Assembly: GCF_004346845.1 (NCBI RefSeq)
Contig: NZ_SMGI01000001.1
Span: 777,116-841,115 of the forward strand
Source: Winogradskyella wandonensis
Lineage (GTDB): Bacteria > Bacteroidota > Bacteroidia > Flavobacteriales > Flavobacteriaceae
Length of the DNA: 64,000 nt
Direction of reading: 5' to 3'
The position numbers were made by a program, and so were the translations under genes. A model generated the notes under the pieces. The model was given only the letters and a program-made list of their open reading frames with translations. It searched no databases and was not told the origin of the DNA. Each line of letters starts with the position of its first letter. Within the stretch, counting starts at the first letter, position 1. Shown here piece by piece: positions 3,399-63,014 of the stretch.

Positions 3399-4571
3399 TT
3401 AACTATCCGTTTTACGGGCTTGTTTCTTCATCACCTCTAAAACTTCTTTACTAAAAGACGGTTGGCTTGACCCTTCGGATGCCTTTTGCTTTAAGTAGTC
3501 GCGTTTTTTCTTCAGAAGTTCCTTTAGTTTCTGGTTATCTGCCTTTCGCTTGTTGCTCATAGCTTTAACCAGACGTTCTTTTTCTTCAAGAGATTTTCCT
3601 TTTAGATTTTCAGGGAGTTTGTCGTTTTCAATCTCGTTAAGTTTTAGTTTTCCGTTGTCGTAATCGCTAATAATTTCCTGGCTTCCGTAAGCAACTTTTT
3701 GTCCCGCTTTGCTTTGTTTGTATTCGGCACGAGCACTATTTGCTGTTGTAGAACCACTATCGTAAACCGCCATAGACATGGCTTTTTTAGAGTAGTTAGC
3801 TTCGCGTAGTTTTTTATCGCCATAGTACATTCTGGTATCATCTATATTGCGGGATAAGCGATTAATATCATCGTCGTAAGGTGTTGCTACCACGTAATCT
3901 TGTGCGTTTTGGTCTAGCATTAAAAATTCACCATTAGTACAAGCGGCCATGCTTTTAAAATGCGGAATGGCTTCACGGCAAGCGTTGCCTAGCTTTATAG
4001 TATTAATTGTAATGCCTTTTTTAGCAGCGAGTTTGCAGCTTTCGGTATATTTTACATCATCTTGATAATCCATATGTGGCGGACAATCGCCAACTACAAA
4101 TATGGTTCTGTAGGTTTTTTTATCGGATGACCATTGCATACGTGTAATAGATTCGTGCAAGGCTTGGTTAACACTCTCAGGAGAATCACCACCACCAGCC
4201 GCATTAATATCTAAAAGTTCGGTATAGGCCTCATCTAAATCCGTAGTTAAGTCAATACGCTTAGTAATAAACGCATCGCCTTTATCGCGATAAAACACCA
4301 TACCCATTCGTAGCGTATCGATATCACCATCTTGTGCGAGTTCGCTAACAATATCCCAGATTTTTTCTTTTGCTGTACCTATAAGTCCGCCCATACTGCC
4401 TGTGGCGTCTAAGCAAAATACAATTTCAGCATTTTTTGTAGGATGCCTATCTGCAGATTTCACTAAAGGTTTGTTCGGATTGTGGTTTAGTGCTTGAACT
4501 TCGTTGGTGTTTCTACAATTAAAAAGTAGAATGGTTAGTACGATAATGGAAATTTGTGTTTTCAGTTTCAT
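3399..4571 (-). CDS. VWA-domain lipoprotein
   Basis: A 390-residue protein with a lipoprotein signal peptide ending in the lipobox LLFNC (Cys at about residue 19). A von Willebrand factor A domain follows, roughly residues 48-240. Its MIDAS start is FCLDATGSMGG (the DxTGS variant of DxSxS), with a later GGGDSPESV segment and a VVGDCPPH segment. The C-terminal 130 residues are lysine- and glutamate-rich and probably coiled coil. VWA lipoproteins of this type act as metal-dependent adhesion or scaffold modules in the periplasm or at the outer membrane; the partner is unknown. It stands alone on the minus strand. Confidence 0.7.
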   Translation of the reverse strand: MKLKTQISIIVLTILLFNCRNTNEVQALNHNPNKPLVKSADRHPTKNAEIVFCLDATGSMGGLIGTAKEKIWDIVSELAQDGDIDTLRMGMVFYRDKGDAFITKRIDLTTDLDEAYTELLDINAAGGGDSPESVNQALHESITRMQWSSDKKTYRTIFVVGDCPPHMDYQDDVKYTESCKLAAKKGITINTIKLGNACREAIPHFKSMAACTNGEFLMLDQNAQDYVVATPYDDDINRLSRNIDDTRMYYGDKKLREANYSKKAMSMAVYDSGSTTANSARAEYKQSKAGQKVAYGSQEIISDYDNGKLKLNEIENDKLPENLKGKSLEEKERLVKAMSNKRKADNQKLKELLKKKRDYLKQKASEGSSQPSFSKEVLEVMKKQARKTDS

Positions 4572-4729
4572 AATATTTTGATTTGATGAATAATAGGCTA
4601 AACTAAATCTGTGGTAGCATCTTTACAATCTAAAACACGTCAAAACCTATTTTTAATGAGTAAAACCAACATTTCATTGAGTGATGCTATTATTCATAAC
4701 ATTCTGGACTAAATTTTATTCGAATTAGT

Positions 4730-56905: not shown

Positions 56906-58231
56906 ATGAAAAAACTAGCATTACACTGGAGGATTATTATAGGAATGGTTCTCGGAATCATTTTTGGTTTTATTATGAATAGCGTCAACGGACAGCAATT
57001 TGTAACCGATTGGATTGCGCCGTTTGGTACGATATTTATTAATCTTCTCAAGTTAATTGCAGTACCTTTAATATTAGCGTCTTTAATAAAAGGGATTTCA
57101 GATTTAAAAGACATTTCTAAGATTAAGGCTATGGGCTTACGTACCATCCTAATTTATGTAGGGACAACTTTGGTAGCTATTGTTATTGGTCTATCAATCG
57201 TAAATATTGTAAAACCAGGAACTGGGATGCCTCAAGACACCATCGAGAACATTAAATTAAAATATGAGAACGATGCCGGAGTTACAGATAAATTAGTAAA
57301 GGCGAGTGCACAAAAAGATGCAGGTCCGTTGCAGGCTTTGGTAGATATTTTTCCAAGTAATATTTTTCAATCTATGGCAGATGCAAGCATGTTACAAGTC
57401 ATTTTCTTTGCCTTATTTGTTGGAATTTGTCTTTTACTCATAGGCGAAAAGAAAGCGAAACCCATGATTGATATTTTTGATTCCTTAAACGAGGTCGTCA
57501 TGAAAATGGTCGACTTAATCATGCTTTTTGCACCTTATGCTGTATTTGCGCTTATGGCTAATGTTATTATCGCTTTTGATGATACCACCATCTTAGTTAA
57601 ACTGCTACAATATGCGTTCTGTGTTGTTGGCGGATTAGTACTTATGATTGGCTTTTATATGCTTTTGGTTAAAGTTTATGGCAAAAAATCCCCGATGTGG
57701 TTTTTAAGTAAAATTAGTCCAGCACAGCTATTGGCTTTTTCTACAAGTAGTAGTGCGGCAACCTTACCCGTAACTATGGAACGTGTGGAGGAGCATGTTG
57801 GCGTAGACAAAGAGGTTTCGGGCTTTGTACTTCCAGTAGGCGCTACCGTTAATATGGATGGCACAAGTTTGTATCAAGGCATTGCAGCTGTATTTATTAT
57901 GCAGGTTATTTGGCCAGAAGGACTATCATTTACCAATCAGTTGGTTATTGTTTTTACCGCATTATTAGCGTCTATCGGTTCTGCGGCTGTACCAAGTGCT
58001 GGTATGGTAATGTTAGTTATAGTCTTAGAATCTATAAATTTCCCGTCAGAATTGTTACCGATAGGTTTAGCATTGATTTTTGCTGTAGACAGGCCTTTAG
58101 ATATGTGTAGAACCGTAGTTAATGTTACAGGAGACGCTACAGTGTCGCTGCTCGTTGCAAAATCTTTAGGAAAACTCCATGATAATCCAAAACCCAAGGA
58201 ATGGGATGATAATTATGAGGCTGTAAAATAA
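56906..58231 (+). CDS. Dicarboxylate/amino acid:cation symporter (DAACS family)
   Basis: A 441-residue transporter with about eight membrane segments and two re-entrant loops. It carries the serine-rich motif FSTSSSAATLPVTM near residue 277 and NMDGTSLYQGIAAVF near 315, and ends with PLDMCRTVVNVTGDAT, which holds the substrate Asp and Asn of the GltP/GltPh family. It imports glutamate, aspartate or C4-dicarboxylates with protons or sodium. It lies 34 bases after the lipoprotein gene. Which substrate it takes is not decided by the sequence seen. Confidence 0.93.
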   Translation: MKKLALHWRIIIGMVLGIIFGFIMNSVNGQQFVTDWIAPFGTIFINLLKLIAVPLILASLIKGISDLKDISKIKAMGLRTILIYVGTTLVAIVIGLSIVNIVKPGTGMPQDTIENIKLKYENDAGVTDKLVKASAQKDAGPLQALVDIFPSNIFQSMADASMLQVIFFALFVGICLLLIGEKKAKPMIDIFDSLNEVVMKMVDLIMLFAPYAVFALMANVIIAFDDTTILVKLLQYAFCVVGGLVLMIGFYMLLVKVYGKKSPMWFLSKISPAQLLAFSTSSSAATLPVTMERVEEHVGVDKEVSGFVLPVGATVNMDGTSLYQGIAAVFIMQVIWPEGLSFTNQLVIVFTALLASIGSAAVPSAGMVMLVIVLESINFPSELLPIGLALIFAVDRPLDMCRTVVNVTGDATVSLLVAKSLGKLHDNPKPKEWDDNYEAVK

Positions 58232-58269
58232 GCAGAGAACACATTTTTTCCTAAGAAAATATATTGAAT

Positions 58270-58349
58270 CGCTTTACGCTAGGTGACGTCGAAGCGTTCT
58301 AAAAAACACCAGTTTGAATTTTTAAGTGAAAAACGCTAGGGATTTTCAC
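58270..58349 (+). promoter_or_regulatory. Leader with two hairpins sharing the loop motif ACGCTAGG
   Basis: The motif ACGCTAGG occurs at 58276-58283 and 58333-58340. The first lies in the loop of CGCTT/AAGCG (58270-58274 with 58292-58296), a weak 5-bp stem. The second lies in the loop of GTGAAAA/TTTTCAC (58326-58332 with 58343-58349), a 7-bp stem. Both lie in the 187-base spacer before the ATP-grasp operon and could be protein or RNA binding sites. Confidence 0.4.
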
Positions 58350-58418
58350 ATTCAGTTTTACCAACTAAATAAAAGTTAGTATCTTTTCCTTTCATTTTTT
58401 AAAAACCAACCAAATACT

Positions 58419-59456
58419 ATGAATATTTGCTTTATAATGTATCCTTGGGAAAAAATAGACCCTGAAAACGATACCAGCTTAGCGCTTATAAAAGAATGTG
58501 TAAAACGAGGCCATGGCGTCGCTACTTGTACACCTGCCAATTTAACGATACGTGATAGCGTGACTAATGCTTTTTGTACTGTTGTTGGTCGTATGGATAA
58601 GGTTCCTACTTCACTTAAAGCATTTTATAATAAAGCAAAATTACGTGAAGAAATGTTGCCTTTGGCTGGTTTTGATGCCATATTTTTTAGAGCAAATCCA
58701 CCGCTAGACCCGTTAATGCTTAACTTTTTAGATTCTGTAAAAGATGATGTTTTTATCGTTAATTCATTGCAGGGTATGCGGGAAGCCAACAATAAATTAT
58801 ATACGGCAGCTTTTGGTGATGCGCATAGCAATATTATTCCAAATACCCACGTATCAAAGAATAAGGAGTATTTAATAAAGCAGATTAAAGAATCAAAGTC
58901 AGATAAAATGATTCTAAAGCCATTAAACGGATTTGGTGGTTCAGGCGTAATTCTAATAGAAAAATCAGCGATGAACAATATTAATTCGCTATTGGATTTT
59001 TACATCAGTGCTGGCGAAGGTGAATCTAATTATGTTATTCTTCAAGATTATATCGAAGGTGCCGATAAGGGCGATGTTAGAATTTTAATGCTTAATGGTG
59101 AAGCCGTTGGTGCAATGAAACGTGTTCCTGGTAATGATGACCACCGCTCAAATGTTTCTGCTGGCGGTTCTGTGCAGCGACATACTTTAACAAAAGAAGA
59201 AAAGGCCTTGTGCAGACAAATAGGACCTAAGCTTGTAAAAGATGGCTTGTATTTTGTTGGAATAGATGTTATTGGTGGAAAGTTGGTAGAAGTAAATGTA
59301 ATGTCTCCTGGCGGTATTACTTACATCAATAAAGTTTATAAAAACAAACGAAAAGTAGAGGAGAAGGTTATCGATTTTCTTGAAAGTAAAGTCTTAGATA
59401 ATCTTGAAGCATTTAATAGACGTACCCGATTACGGAAGACTGTAGAAGATGCTTAG
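58419..59456 (+). CDS. ATP-grasp ligase (RimK/glutathione synthetase-like)
   Basis: A 345-residue ATP-grasp enzyme. The N-terminal domain starts MNICFIMYPWEKIDPENDTS. The ATP-binding part has MILKPLNGFGGSGVILIEKS near residue 164, VILQDYIEGADKGDVRILML near 205 and the metal-binding EVNVMSPGGITYINKVY near 291. It should form an amide bond between a carboxylate and an amine using ATP. Homologues are often named glutathione synthetase, but BshA in this window suggests bacillithiol as the thiol, and the downstream FGase and DUF1704 genes point to a peptide-modifying pathway. It heads the cluster; the next gene starts 124 bases later. Confidence 0.85.
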   Translation: MNICFIMYPWEKIDPENDTSLALIKECVKRGHGVATCTPANLTIRDSVTNAFCTVVGRMDKVPTSLKAFYNKAKLREEMLPLAGFDAIFFRANPPLDPLMLNFLDSVKDDVFIVNSLQGMREANNKLYTAAFGDAHSNIIPNTHVSKNKEYLIKQIKESKSDKMILKPLNGFGGSGVILIEKSAMNNINSLLDFYISAGEGESNYVILQDYIEGADKGDVRILMLNGEAVGAMKRVPGNDDHRSNVSAGGSVQRHTLTKEEKALCRQIGPKLVKDGLYFVGIDVIGGKLVEVNVMSPGGITYINKVYKNKRKVEEKVIDFLESKVLDNLEAFNRRTRLRKTVEDA

Positions 59457-59462
59457 AGAGTA

Positions 59463-59488
59463 AGCAGTATTCAGTAGCAGTATTCAGA
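59463..59488 (+). repeat. Tandem 13-base repeat
   Basis: AGCAGTATTCAGT is followed directly by AGCAGTATTCAGA just after the ATP-grasp stop. It is a simple duplication of no obvious function. Confidence 0.6.
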
Positions 59489-59579
59489 AAAATACCGTGG
59501 TTATTAGTAATTTGTAAAATCGACTTGCCGTCAAGATGCAACTGAAGCTCAAAGTTTTAATTTTTTTATCTGTTTCCAT

Positions 59580-60410
59580 ATGAAAGGCATTAATCTTAAT
59601 TCTTCTTTAGTTTCAGTTGAATGGCTTAATGCTAACATTGAAGCGGAAAATCTCGTTGTTCTTGATGCTACAATTCCTAAAGTGTCTGGTTCTGGTGTAG
59701 AAAACACGATTGGTTACATTCCAAAATCTCGGTTTTTTGATATTAAAAATAAATTCAGTGCAGTTGATGCCCAGTTTCCGAATACGATTCCAAGTAAAAA
59801 TCAATTTCAAACTGAAGCTAGAAATTTAGGAGTTAATTCTAGTTCTTGTATTGTTATTTACGACCAACACGGTATATATTCTAGCGCTCGCGCTTGGTGG
59901 CTTTTTAGATATTTTGGTCATAAAAACGTGGCTGTTTTAAATGGTGGTTTACCAGAATGGCATAAGATGGGATTTTTAACGGTTAAGCATTATTCGGATG
60001 CTACAGACAAAGGCGATTTTAACCCAAAATTAAACGCTTCATTGTTTACAGATTTTAATGGCGTATCAAATTTTTCAAAATGTGCCGATGTCCAGATTAT
60101 AGATGCGCGCCCAAAAAAACGATTTTCTGGTGAAATTCCAGAACCTAGAGCAGGATTAAGAAGCGGAACAATTCCTAATTCCGTAAATTTACCTTACACC
60201 GAATTGCTAGATGGTCACAAGCTTAAATCGAAAAAAGAATTGAAAGGACTGTTCAATTCAATTTCAGACAAAAATAAAACGCTAGTCTTTAGCTGCGGCT
60301 CTGGTATTACAGCTTGTAATTTAGCCTTAGGCGCTACAATCGCTGATTATAACGATATCGTTGTTTACGACGGTTCATGGACGGAATACGGAACACTAAC
60401 AGAACAATAA
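59580..60410 (+). CDS. Rhodanese-type sulfurtransferase
   Basis: A 276-residue two-domain rhodanese: SVEWLNANIEAENLVVLDAT, CIVIYDQHGIYSSARAWW and PLHG-type substrate regions, with the active loop CGSGITA (Cys near residue 239). This is the mercaptopyruvate sulfurtransferase form (CGSGVTA type) rather than the thiosulfate form (CRKGVT). It could supply sulfane sulfur from mercaptopyruvate. The stop overlaps the next ATG by one base (TAATG), linking it to the FGase/DUF1704 operon. Confidence 0.88.
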   Translation: MKGINLNSSLVSVEWLNANIEAENLVVLDATIPKVSGSGVENTIGYIPKSRFFDIKNKFSAVDAQFPNTIPSKNQFQTEARNLGVNSSSCIVIYDQHGIYSSARAWWLFRYFGHKNVAVLNGGLPEWHKMGFLTVKHYSDATDKGDFNPKLNASLFTDFNGVSNFSKCADVQIIDARPKKRFSGEIPEPRAGLRSGTIPNSVNLPYTELLDGHKLKSKKELKGLFNSISDKNKTLVFSCGSGITACNLALGATIADYNDIVVYDGSWTEYGTLTEQ

Positions 60411-60739
60411 TGGAAGCACCTAATTGGACAAAAGAAGAACTTATTGCATATACTTTACTATATGCAGCGCACTCCGATTTTAAAGAAGATAATAAGGAGC
60501 GAAATGTTATTATTTCTAAAGTAGATATGCAAACCTTTCAAAAAATTCATGATGAGTTTTCGAAGGATAATGACTTTCAGAGTATTCAAAAGATATTAGC
60601 TTCTGTCGAGAAGCATAACTACTCCAAGGATGCTCTTGAACAAATGTTGGCTGACATCAAAGGTTTATTTTTTGCTGATGGTGATTTTGATATCAGAGAA
60701 CATTCAATGCTATTATTTCTAAAACGTATTTTAAAATAA
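60410..60739 (+). CDS. Small acidic helical protein, possibly TerB-like
   Basis: From the ATG at 60410 the product is 109 residues (MEAPNWTKEELIAYTLLYAA), all-helical, ending with FFADGDFDIREHSMLLFLKR, a DG-containing stretch reminiscent of TerB-fold proteins. The resemblance is by eye and weak. It begins in the stop of the sulfurtransferase and its stop directly abuts the FGase start, so it is translationally coupled on both sides. Its constant place in the operon suggests an accessory subunit. Confidence 0.55.
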   Translation: MEAPNWTKEELIAYTLLYAAHSDFKEDNKERNVIISKVDMQTFQKIHDEFSKDNDFQSIQKILASVEKHNYSKDALEQMLADIKGLFFADGDFDIREHSMLLFLKRILK

Positions 60740-61570
60740 ATGGAAAGACTTTCAGTTTCAAAAATCATCGAAAACATTAATAATGAGGTGTGTTTTCATG
60801 CAGTAGCGGATGATTATTCGTTTACCTTAAAAATTGATAAGTATGTACATTATGCCTGTGGCGCGGTACATGACGGACATCAATTCCGAAAGGAATTATG
60901 GGACAATTGCTTGCATACAGAATATGAGCGTTGGTACGAAGAAGACCCAGAAACTAAGGCCATGATTGCTTCACATCCTATTGTAATTGCAGGATGTGAC
61001 TCTCGTTTTGAGTATGATTTGAATCGTACACCAGAAGAGGCCGTTTTTGAAACGGCTTGGGGCAAACAGCTCTGGAAAACGCCACTTCCTGATACTCAAA
61101 AAAAAGTAAGTCAGCAAAAGCACGCCAATTTTTACAAGGTCGTTGCTGCTTTAATATCTAAACTCGAAGAAAAGTTTGGTATTTGTATTGTTTACGATAT
61201 GCACAGCTACAATTGGCAGCGTTGGGATAGAGAAGTACCTACTTGGAATTTGGGCACCTCTAATGTCGATAACGAGCGCTTTGGTACTTGCATCGAAGAT
61301 TGGAGGAAAGCGCTAGCAACAATACATTTGCCACATGGTATTAAGCAAACATCCGCTATAAATAATACGTTTTATGGAAATGGGTATTTCTTAAAATTTA
61401 TTACGCAGAACTTTAAAAATACACTAGTTTTGGCAACCGAAATCGCAAAAGTGTATTGCGATGAATATAACCAAATCATATATCCAGAAGTTGTGTCTGC
61501 TGTAGAAAAACAACTAAAAGTTATTTTACCTAAGCACGCTTCGGATTTTTACAATGCGTTTTCTAGCTAA
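60740..61570 (+). CDS. N-formylglutamate amidohydrolase-like enzyme
   Basis: A 276-residue protein of the FGase fold with VHDGHQFRKELW near residue 44, IAGCDSRFEYDLNRTPEEA near 82-100, IVYDMHSYNWQR near 149-160 and a late NGYFLKFITQN. The metal and substrate residues (His, Asp, Arg) are kept. The classical enzyme cleaves N-formylglutamate in histidine breakdown, but no hut genes are present. With ATP-grasp and DUF1704 neighbours it more likely acts on a related glutamyl or acyl-amide bond. It abuts both neighbours with zero spacing. Confidence 0.85.
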   Translation: MERLSVSKIIENINNEVCFHAVADDYSFTLKIDKYVHYACGAVHDGHQFRKELWDNCLHTEYERWYEEDPETKAMIASHPIVIAGCDSRFEYDLNRTPEEAVFETAWGKQLWKTPLPDTQKKVSQQKHANFYKVVAALISKLEEKFGICIVYDMHSYNWQRWDREVPTWNLGTSNVDNERFGTCIEDWRKALATIHLPHGIKQTSAINNTFYGNGYFLKFITQNFKNTLVLATEIAKVYCDEYNQIIYPEVVSAVEKQLKVILPKHASDFYNAFSS

Positions 61571-62728
61571 ATGGCACAAATAAAAACCACATCAGAGTTT
61601 CAAGAGCTATTTGATATCGATGCCAATCTAGATAGATTGGTAAAGAATATCGAATTACTTAATTATATAAATCCCTTAAATATAACTGCGGAAAAAAAGA
61701 AGTTTTTCTCGTCTAAATATACTTACGAGCCAGAATTTAAGTATCCTAAGATTAAATTTAATGGGTATAAACTTCATCGTTTATTCTTTTCACAGCGTTT
61801 AGAGCGCATAGAAGATGATGATATCCGGCAGCTGTACGAAGACATTATTTACGAATATTCAGGATTGATAGAATGCATAGAAACTATAGGTCAAGGCCGA
61901 AAATTCTATTACAACAGTCTAAAAAGTTTTGGAACGCCAACAGAGAATGACATCGAAAACGCCAAATTTATTCTACGTTTTGATGATGTAGAGGACGCCG
62001 ATTTAGAGCCTGTTCACGATGTAGATTACGCCAAGTCCTATTTCGAGGACTACGCTAAGCGTTATGATTTTAATTATAATTTAAAGATAAGTAATAACAT
62101 TTCTGCAGCTGCAATGGTTCTGAATAATACGCAGACTTTAGTATTACGGAAAAATCATAAGTTTAGTAATAATCAGCTTAAGGTTTTAGCAAATCATGAA
62201 ATAGGTGTGCACATGGTAACAACATTTAATGGTTTATCTCAGCCACTAAAAGTATTTTCGAATGGTTTTCCTAATAATGTAGAAACTCAAGAAGGCTTGG
62301 CTGTTTATGCAGAGTATATGAGTGGTTCTTTAACCATGTTTCGCCTAAGAGAATTGGCATTTAGAGTGATAGCAGCGGATAGTTTAAGTAAAGGTTATAG
62401 CTTTGCCGATACGTTCGATTTGTTACATAGGCATCATAAGTTAGAACGTAATAAAGCCTTTAGTATTACACAACGCATTCATCGTGGAGGTGGTTTTACT
62501 AAAGATTTTTTGTACTTAACAGGACTGCGAAACGTCTTTAAATATGCTAACGAACACCACGACTTAGGTAAGCTATTAATGGGAAAAGTAAGTATGTCTT
62601 ACCTGCCGACAATAGAAAAACTTCTAGATTTAGGTTTAGCAATACCACCGATACATCTTACAGATGCTTATAAAATAAATAACAATACTAATACTAATTT
62701 AGATTTTATCCTTAGCGGCTTAAAATAA
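61571..62728 (+). CDS. DUF1704/QEGLA-motif metallopeptidase-like protein
   Basis: A 385-residue protein with the zincin motif NHEIGVHMVTTFNGL (HExxH near residue 208) and NVETQEGLAVYAEYMSGS (QEGLA near 239), the hallmark of the family annotated as flavohemoglobin-expression-modulating. The eukaryotic DUF1704 member MATCAP is a metallocarboxypeptidase that removes the C-terminal tyrosine of tubulin. Here it may trim the C-terminus of a protein or peptide made by the ATP-grasp ligase. It abuts the FGase stop. Its own stop lies next to the structured RNA region. Confidence 0.88.
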   Translation: MAQIKTTSEFQELFDIDANLDRLVKNIELLNYINPLNITAEKKKFFSSKYTYEPEFKYPKIKFNGYKLHRLFFSQRLERIEDDDIRQLYEDIIYEYSGLIECIETIGQGRKFYYNSLKSFGTPTENDIENAKFILRFDDVEDADLEPVHDVDYAKSYFEDYAKRYDFNYNLKISNNISAAAMVLNNTQTLVLRKNHKFSNNQLKVLANHEIGVHMVTTFNGLSQPLKVFSNGFPNNVETQEGLAVYAEYMSGSLTMFRLRELAFRVIAADSLSKGYSFADTFDLLHRHHKLERNKAFSITQRIHRGGGFTKDFLYLTGLRNVFKYANEHHDLGKLLMGKVSMSYLPTIEKLLDLGLAIPPIHLTDAYKINNNTNTNLDFILSGLK

Positions 62729-62876
62729 GAAAACCTCAAAGCCAGATAGTATTGTCTACCATTTTTCAATGATACTTACGATAGGGTAGACTTGCCATAT
62801 TGAAAGAGCTTGATTCGTTCCTATCTAACTGAAGATAGGCTCAAGCTAACATTATCTAGCTTTGAGGTTTGTTACT
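62719..62876 (-). ncRNA. Candidate structured non-coding RNA with a pseudoknot
   Basis: This lies in a 286-base spacer between convergent genes. The closing stem pairs 62731-62748 with 62853-62870: 17 Watson-Crick pairs plus one C/A mismatch on the plus strand, which becomes a U-G wobble on the minus strand. Inside are GTCTACC/GGTAGAC (62754-62760 with 62785-62791), a pseudoknot TTTCAAT/ATTGAAA (62764-62770 with 62799-62805), and a hairpin AGCTTGA/TCAAGCT (62807-62813 with 62841-62847) continued by CCTATCT/AGATAGG (62820-62826 with 62833-62839). A minus-strand near-consensus TACTTTTTG lies at 62891-62883 and a T-rich tail follows the stem. I cannot match it to a known RNA family. Confidence 0.55.
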
Positions 62877-63014
62877 TGGCTACAAAAAGTAACCAATCAT
62901 CAACCATCAACCTTAAACTCTACCTAAAAGTAGGATTAATAATAGGGCTATGAAACTAAAACTGAGTTAACCAGGTAGATTTAGGAGTAAATGGGTCTTT
63001 TTAATGAGTAAATG
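62877..63014. other. Rest of the convergent spacer
   Basis: GTTACTT (62871-62877) pairs with AAGTAAC (62887-62893), and TCTACCT (62919-62925) with AGGTAGA (62973-62979). No ORF is credible. These stems overlap or flank the proposed minus-strand promoter and may belong to a longer RNA or simply be its control region. Confidence 0.35.

Follow-up and report, generated by a model that had tools for sequence, protein, structure and literature searches.

The window, a stretch of 64,000 nucleotides of the Winogradskyella wandonensis genome, contains an intergenic segment (62719–62893) that a preliminary description had picked out as densely paired and RNA-like. Convergent to it, on the plus strand, lies an operon-like run (56906–62728) that by eye encodes a symporter, an ATP-grasp enzyme and a sulfurtransferase-like protein, and continues with an N-formylglutamate amidohydrolase (PF05013) and a MATCAP-family protein (PF08014). 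Comparison with relatives identifies the segment as a putative gene for a conserved structured RNA, encoded on the minus strand with its core running from 62871 to 62726 (Table 1). As first described, the RNA leads into no gene: the next gene downstream is convergent and ends at 62728, and the RNA is thus not placed in the 5′ leader of a same-strand gene, as a riboswitch or other cis-regulator would be.

Table 1. Features of the RNA locus and of a second activator-site pair, in window coordinates.
Feature	Position	Strand	Remarks
Conserved RNA core	62726..62871	-	match to models R1/R2, model positions 1-144
P1 closing helix, 5′ arm	62853..62870	-	pairs with 62731-62748 (62870-62853 with 62748-62731 in minus-strand reading)
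P1 closing helix, 3′ arm	62731..62748	-	with the T-rich run to 62726, a probable intrinsic terminator (predicted role)
P2/P3 hairpin	62807..62847	-	P2, 62847-62841 with 62813-62807; P3, 62839-62833 with 62826-62820
Conserved parts of P2/P3 hairpin	62807..62847	-	loop (UCNGUU), bulge (AAYGA)
P4 hairpin	62775..62806	-	near-invariant GUCUA in loop (62791-62787)
P6 variable hairpin	62757..62774	-	
Possible P5 pseudoknot arm	62754..62760	-	would pair with 62785-62791; not universal; overlaps P6
-7 box TACTTTTA (TANNTTTG type)	62925..62932	-	30 nt after last activator site; start predicted near 62918-62920
Activator site 3 (TTAACTCA)	62963..62970	-	
Activator site 2 (TTTACTCC)	62984..62991	-	
Activator site 1 (TTTACTCA)	63005..63012	-	
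Second activator-site pair in window	4657..4685	-	upstream of gene 3399-4571 (-) for a VWA-domain protein; lacks a clear -7 box at offset 30

The segment 62719–62893 folded with a minimum free energy of −52.7 kcal/mol (z −5.6) on the plus strand and −56.7 kcal/mol (z −6.8) on the minus strand, and 200 dinucleotide shuffles gave no equally good fold on either strand, which bears out the early impression that the pairing exceeds chance. Every pairing then described was found as letters. The 18-bp closing helix (P1) and the hairpin of two stems (P2/P3) are both conserved in relatives, and the single plus-strand mismatch in the closing helix is indeed a wobble on the minus strand.

No known family accounts for the RNA, in agreement with the preliminary description. 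A search of the 64-kb window with the 4227 families of Rfam 15 yielded no match at the gathering threshold; with relaxed settings, the region gave three matches, the best with an E of 1.2 and all far under the gathering scores. The family 6S-Flavo (RF01685) did not match at the place of the RNA; it is present elsewhere in the same genome, with 93.3 bits and over its cut-off. The earlier reading of a structured minus-strand RNA, paired beyond chance and outside Rfam, is therefore supported.

The W. wandonensis genome holds one copy. Plain DNA searches found the RNA in 18 of 37 genomes of the genus, its own included, the other 17 copies being 69–84% identical, and gave one marginal 32-base match in 23 genomes beyond the genus. 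From those 18 sequences we built a covariance model (R1), which matched 35 of 397 genomes of the family, from 25 of 237 genera and with W. wandonensis counted in; three of the 35 (G088, G189 and G064) have two copies. A second model (R2), built from 55 members, matched 54 of 68 Winogradskyella genomes, once in each, and of 296 genomes at order level and 395 at phylum level it matched only the genome of origin; these large searches used strict filters and scored few candidates per genome, and the counts are therefore lower bounds. An exact core pattern matched 63 named contigs, mainly from Winogradskyella and also from Bizionia, Psychroserpens, Aquaticitalea, Meridianimaribacter, Mangrovimonas, Algicola and other Flavobacteriaceae/Bacteroidetes; no record named Flavobacterium was among them. 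R2 also matched 59 of the 63, and the four that fail it (L090, L091, L094 and L108) were dropped as chance. After removal of 24 of the 59 as duplicates of loci already in the set, the remaining 35 and the previous 55 made up 90 members, which are related, so that the counts given below are not independent.

In 14 of the 68 Winogradskyella genomes, two of them only about 83% complete, R2 found no match, and a relaxed search of these 14 gave nothing better than E 0.02, indicating that the RNA is dispensable, not essential. The convergent MATCAP/DUF1704 gene has a close orthologue (75–77%) in four of the 14 and none in the other ten, four of which show matches of 30–32% only; we do not claim co-loss with the RNA, because the RNA-positive genomes were not counted in the same way. 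At the syntenic place in one genome (G480, locus L139), we saw by eye only a P1-like terminator hairpin, without the internal domain of the RNA and with a weak model match (E 0.15), which has the appearance, again by eye, of a natural loss of that domain. The RNA, absent from Rfam, is conserved in Winogradskyella and related marine bacteria.

RNAalifold predicted 41 base pairs from the 18-member alignment, 20 of them with changes on both sides. In an alignment of the 90 distinct members that was itself fitted to the structure, 37 of the 41 pairs showed changes on both sides, 94.8% of the paired cells could pair, as compared with 76.8% after shuffling and at most 55.0% after sliding, and the covariation score was 0.557 versus 0.218. 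For an independent test, a simplified version of our own of the idea behind R-scape, the 90 sequences were realigned by sequence only (MAFFT L-INS-i), and all column pairs were ranked against 12 null alignments simulated with a tree. Seventeen column pairs from this sequence-only alignment beat every null score; 16 are pairs of P1–P4, and the remaining one (32–58) directly extends P2 and forms a standard pair in 53 of the 90 members. Six of the next seven pairs (E 0.08 to 0.33) also belong to helices, and one (15–127) does not. The preliminary description had proposed a search for relatives with compensatory changes; such homologues exist, and compensatory changes are abundant in them. Across the 90 members, G-U combinations occupied 234 cells and A-C combinations only 35, which assigns the RNA to the minus strand.

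From 5′ to 3′, the conserved architecture consists of P1, the P2/P3 hairpin, the P4 hairpin, the P6 hairpin and the 3′ arm of P1, which runs into a T-rich tail. Three unpaired elements are near-invariant: the P3 loop UCNGUU, the bulge AAYGA and the P4 loop GUCUA, the last being present in 80 of 90 members, with variants in seven and not found by our search expression in three. P6 is variable in sequence; a stem of at least 5 bp stands close behind P4 in 76 of the 90 relatives, against 605 of 1800 shuffles.

The preliminary description had also proposed a hairpin GTCTACC/GGTAGAC whose loop would form a 7-bp pseudoknot, TTTCAAT/ATTGAAA. Both are present as letters, but the pseudoknot is not the conserved pairing: across the 90 relatives, the partner of the linker CUUUCAAUAUGG is CCUAUCGUAAG, with which it forms P4 (covarying, with 91.5% of cells paired), and not AUUGAAA. 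We thus rejected that pseudoknot, as the linker covaries with another strand. The hairpin may itself possibly be seen as a pseudoknot (P5), in which GUCUA would pair with a UAGAC-like sequence on its 3′ side; a 5-bp partner of this kind occurs in 40 of 87 members, as compared with 13.8 in shuffles (a comparison not corrected for the tree), a frequency that does not prove a universal pseudoknot. Two other candidates were dropped by eye, namely a kissing interaction between the P3 loop (GUUAG) and the P4 loop (CUAAC), because the window has CUACC there, and a small ORF from a leader ATG, because frames and lengths differ among relatives.

Upstream of the RNA, in up to 400 nt from each of the 90 loci, there were 144 TTYACTCA sites with at most one mismatch, as compared with 41.1 ± 7.5 in mononucleotide shuffles. 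Sites were 21 bp apart in 29 of the 90 loci and 42 bp apart in 21, and any other distance between 10 and 60 occurred in at most two. Of the 48 RNA loci with a site pair (at least 13/16, which left out the other 42 of the 90), 31 have a -7 box (TANNTTTG, at least 5/6) at an offset of exactly 30 nt downstream of the last site, the next commonest offset being found in six. The same offset occurred in 33 of 65 protein-type loci, many of them orthologous and hence not independent (32 of 64 without L238, an RNA locus that was kept; next commonest offset in nine); L173 and L174, which are the RNA itself, and L191, L194 and L198 had been excluded beforehand. These counts show a predicted promoter architecture that is common to the RNA and to envelope-type protein genes, with tandem direct repeats of a 21-bp period upstream of the promoter, as in LytTR-regulated RNAs of the VR-RNA/RNAIII kind. 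The fixed-distance box (62932–62925) falls outside the segment originally described. A near-consensus -7 box also lies immediately 5′ of the closing helix, and we take it to be the one meant there; in relatives its position is not fixed, as 47 of 90 loci have a box in the final 40 nt, versus 38.6 in shuffles, with at most six loci sharing any single position.

With at most one mismatch, the site pair occurs at three places in the W. wandonensis genome: at the RNA, at the VWA-domain gene in the window, which is possibly a second regulon member there, and at the promoter of a gene for a 203-residue protein without a Pfam match, whose next ORF shows plug-type domains by eye. We dropped matches with up to two mismatches as noise, since the genome contained 18, versus 16 for a reversed control. 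In 31 chosen genomes we found 156 site pairs, as compared with 29 for the reversed pattern, and 13 of the 14 Winogradskyella genomes without the RNA retain at least one, indicating that the operator predates the RNA or is more widely distributed.

In 27 of the 90 loci, a DUF4139-type ORF closely precedes the RNA, with 7–19 nt between its last sense codon and the start of the core. One such ORF was run against Pfam, matching DUF4139, DUF4140, CarboxypepD_reg and Plug, and BLAST connects the others with it. The early view of a free-standing RNA thus holds for the window, in which the RNA is a separate unit, but not for these 27 relatives, in which it would be a 3′UTR and resembles 3′UTR-derived sRNAs of the CpxQ kind by position only. 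None of the 27 RNAs within 60 nt behind DUF4139 has a site-pair-plus-box promoter of its own (joint scores of 10–12/22), a result that is partly forced, since a promoter outside the ORF would not fit into 7–19 nt. Conversely, such a promoter (at least 17/22) precedes 46 of the other 63 RNA loci, and ten of the 17 under the cut-off score 15–16/22. An operator and box at 17/22 or better precede the DUF4139 gene itself in 17 of the 20 loci examined, namely in ten of 13 with an adjacent RNA and in all seven with a detached one, and for each of the 17 none of 300 shuffles was as good; the failures are L246, in which the longest ORF is not DUF4139, L251, at a contig end, and L055 (14/22, with 58 of 300 shuffles as good). 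Most RNA copies could therefore share their control, either by putative read-through from DUF4139 or from their own promoter of the same type.

Two RNA copies in two-copy genomes (L026 and L035) lie beside an lspA-like gene, signal-peptidase-II-like by eye; they are under the promoter cut-off and are perhaps subject to other control. In L009 and L010, by eye, a terminator-like hairpin (CCAATAC-ACTCA-GTATTGG-T run) upstream of the RNA and behind the DUF4139 gene has an activator site in its loop, so that terminator and operator overlap.

Genes downstream of the operator loci, a few of which were run against Pfam and the remainder named by eye, encode VWA/plug, CarboxypepD_reg-domain, SIMPL-domain, DUF4139 and other exported proteins. 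One operator-bearing SIMPL-type gene is divergent to a two-gene unit consisting of a TPR/His_kinase (722–723 residues) and a receiver-LytTR response regulator (244 residues), with the operator between the SIMPL-type gene and the kinase/LytTR pair in all five loci retrieved as longer stretches; these five were picked after the first had been seen, and two more SIMPL-type loci (L229 and L232) were short stretches only. From the site spacing and this gene neighbourhood we infer that the candidate regulator is a LytTR protein, although the operator half-site differs from what we take to be the textbook LytTR consensus. There are ten LytTR proteins in the W. wandonensis genome, one of which, at 82% identity to the SIMPL-linked regulator, is its orthologue. 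Unlike in relatives, its kinase/LytTR locus (L157, C2:378294) has no SIMPL-like ORF, and only degenerate sites (TTCACACA twice) lie upstream of the kinase gene.

We favour, with a probability of about 0.6, the reading that the minus strand of the locus encodes a small, structured non-coding RNA that would be the RNA member of a cell-envelope regulon, an sRNA under kinase/LytTR control and acting in trans. Transcription, start position, regulator identity and action in trans are all conditional parts of this scheme. A TPR/LytS-type histidine kinase would pass an envelope signal to the LytTR response regulator, which would bind the TTYACTCA tandem with its 21-bp period and switch on a promoter with a -7 box exactly 30 nt further downstream. 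The predicted transcript would be about 195 nt long, from near 62919 to 62726 on the minus strand, ending at the T-rich P1 terminator, and it would be made alongside envelope proteins, from its own promoter copy or by read-through from the DUF4139/plug-domain gene. It would fold into P1–P4, and usually P6, exposing the P3 loop, the bulge and the P4 loop; most likely, these conserved loops would then base-pair with mRNAs in trans.

Other readings of the same fold were weighed. The three near-invariant elements occupy unpaired places of one compact structure, part of which P5 could lock in the members that have it, and they might thus form a single binding surface for a protein or a ligand instead of antisense seeds. 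We consider this rather unlikely; for such an RNA to act in cis, there is no same-strand downstream gene. A near-symmetrical P1 could also end transcripts on either strand, 27 of 90 copies directly follow an ORF, and the G480 locus retains by eye a P1-like hairpin only, as might be expected if the element were only an elaborate bidirectional terminator, or a stabiliser of 3′ ends between convergent genes, with internal hairpins that block exonucleases. However, near-invariant loops and covarying internal helices would be needless for a terminator, as would the activator-type promoter of most copies not directly behind DUF4139, and we hold this explanation to be improbable.

A mobile-element end or MITE-like inverted repeat, already raised in the preliminary description, would fit the 18-bp terminal inverted repeat and the two copies seen in three family genomes. 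Such elements should occur in multiple copies at unrelated sites, whereas this RNA is single in its own genome and in all 54 genus genomes that have it, and its neighbours recur; furthermore, no viral contig matched the core pattern, plasmids gave no match, and phages gave only one 31-base match at chance level (E 0.7). We therefore assign almost no probability to this origin.

Beyond the favoured reading of a trans-acting envelope sRNA, we tentatively entertain a broader and doubtful one, in which the new family would be the non-coding output of an envelope-sensing two-component system of Bacteroidetes, would have switched repeatedly between 3′UTR and separate gene under the same regulator, and would act through a compact core with three near-invariant unpaired elements, not through a simple seed. 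To our knowledge, few regulatory RNAs of marine Bacteroidetes have been described. For this one, the fold can be tested, a promoter is defined and a regulator is proposed. It links an RNA with a regulon of envelope type (DUF4139, VWA, plug-domain and SIMPL proteins), and its apparent switching between 3′UTR and stand-alone gene under one promoter type opens the birth of an sRNA gene to direct tests. Among the matches listed in the open-access literature, no title or abstract opening described the control of this regulon, nor did those on LytTR, Winogradskyella small RNAs or DUF4139 in flavobacteria describe this RNA or its operator; in the one match on tandem LytTR binding sites in Bacteroidetes, the LytTR passages concern other systems.

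We compared the RNA with known systems. VirR is a LytTR-type regulator. The VirR-controlled VR-RNA of Clostridium perfringens has the motif CCAnTT-N15-CCAGTT, which repeats every 21 bp and is common to protein genes, and it thus resembles the Winogradskyella RNA in its tandem sites of 21-bp period that also precede protein genes (PMC4963840). It belongs, however, to another phylum, is 386 nt long and has another site sequence, the two being set side by side by description and not by sequence; moreover, VR-RNA controls virulence and metabolism genes, while the regulon here comprises envelope-type proteins. RNAIII is about 514 nt long and encodes a peptide, whereas the Winogradskyella RNA is shorter and has no conserved ORF by eye. 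In Staphylococcus aureus, RNAIII is activated by the LytTR regulator AgrA at direct repeats centred near −60 (PMC4227749). The promoter-proximal site pair of our RNA would similarly be centred near −58 if the predicted start holds.

CpxQ is an Hfq-bound, processed RNA. In enterobacteria, this regulatory RNA resides in the 3′UTR of cpxP, an envelope mRNA induced by a two-component system (PMC4817254). By putative read-through, the DUF4139 mRNA would likewise carry our RNA as its 3′UTR, but our RNA has a much more complex fold than CpxQ, and its detached copies have a DUF4139-type promoter of their own. Finally, the Rfp sRNAs of Flavobacterium psychrophilum are described as independent, partly structured and outside Rfam (PMC9723704), and by that description, not by sequence, they are the flavobacterial RNAs to which the Winogradskyella RNA can be likened.
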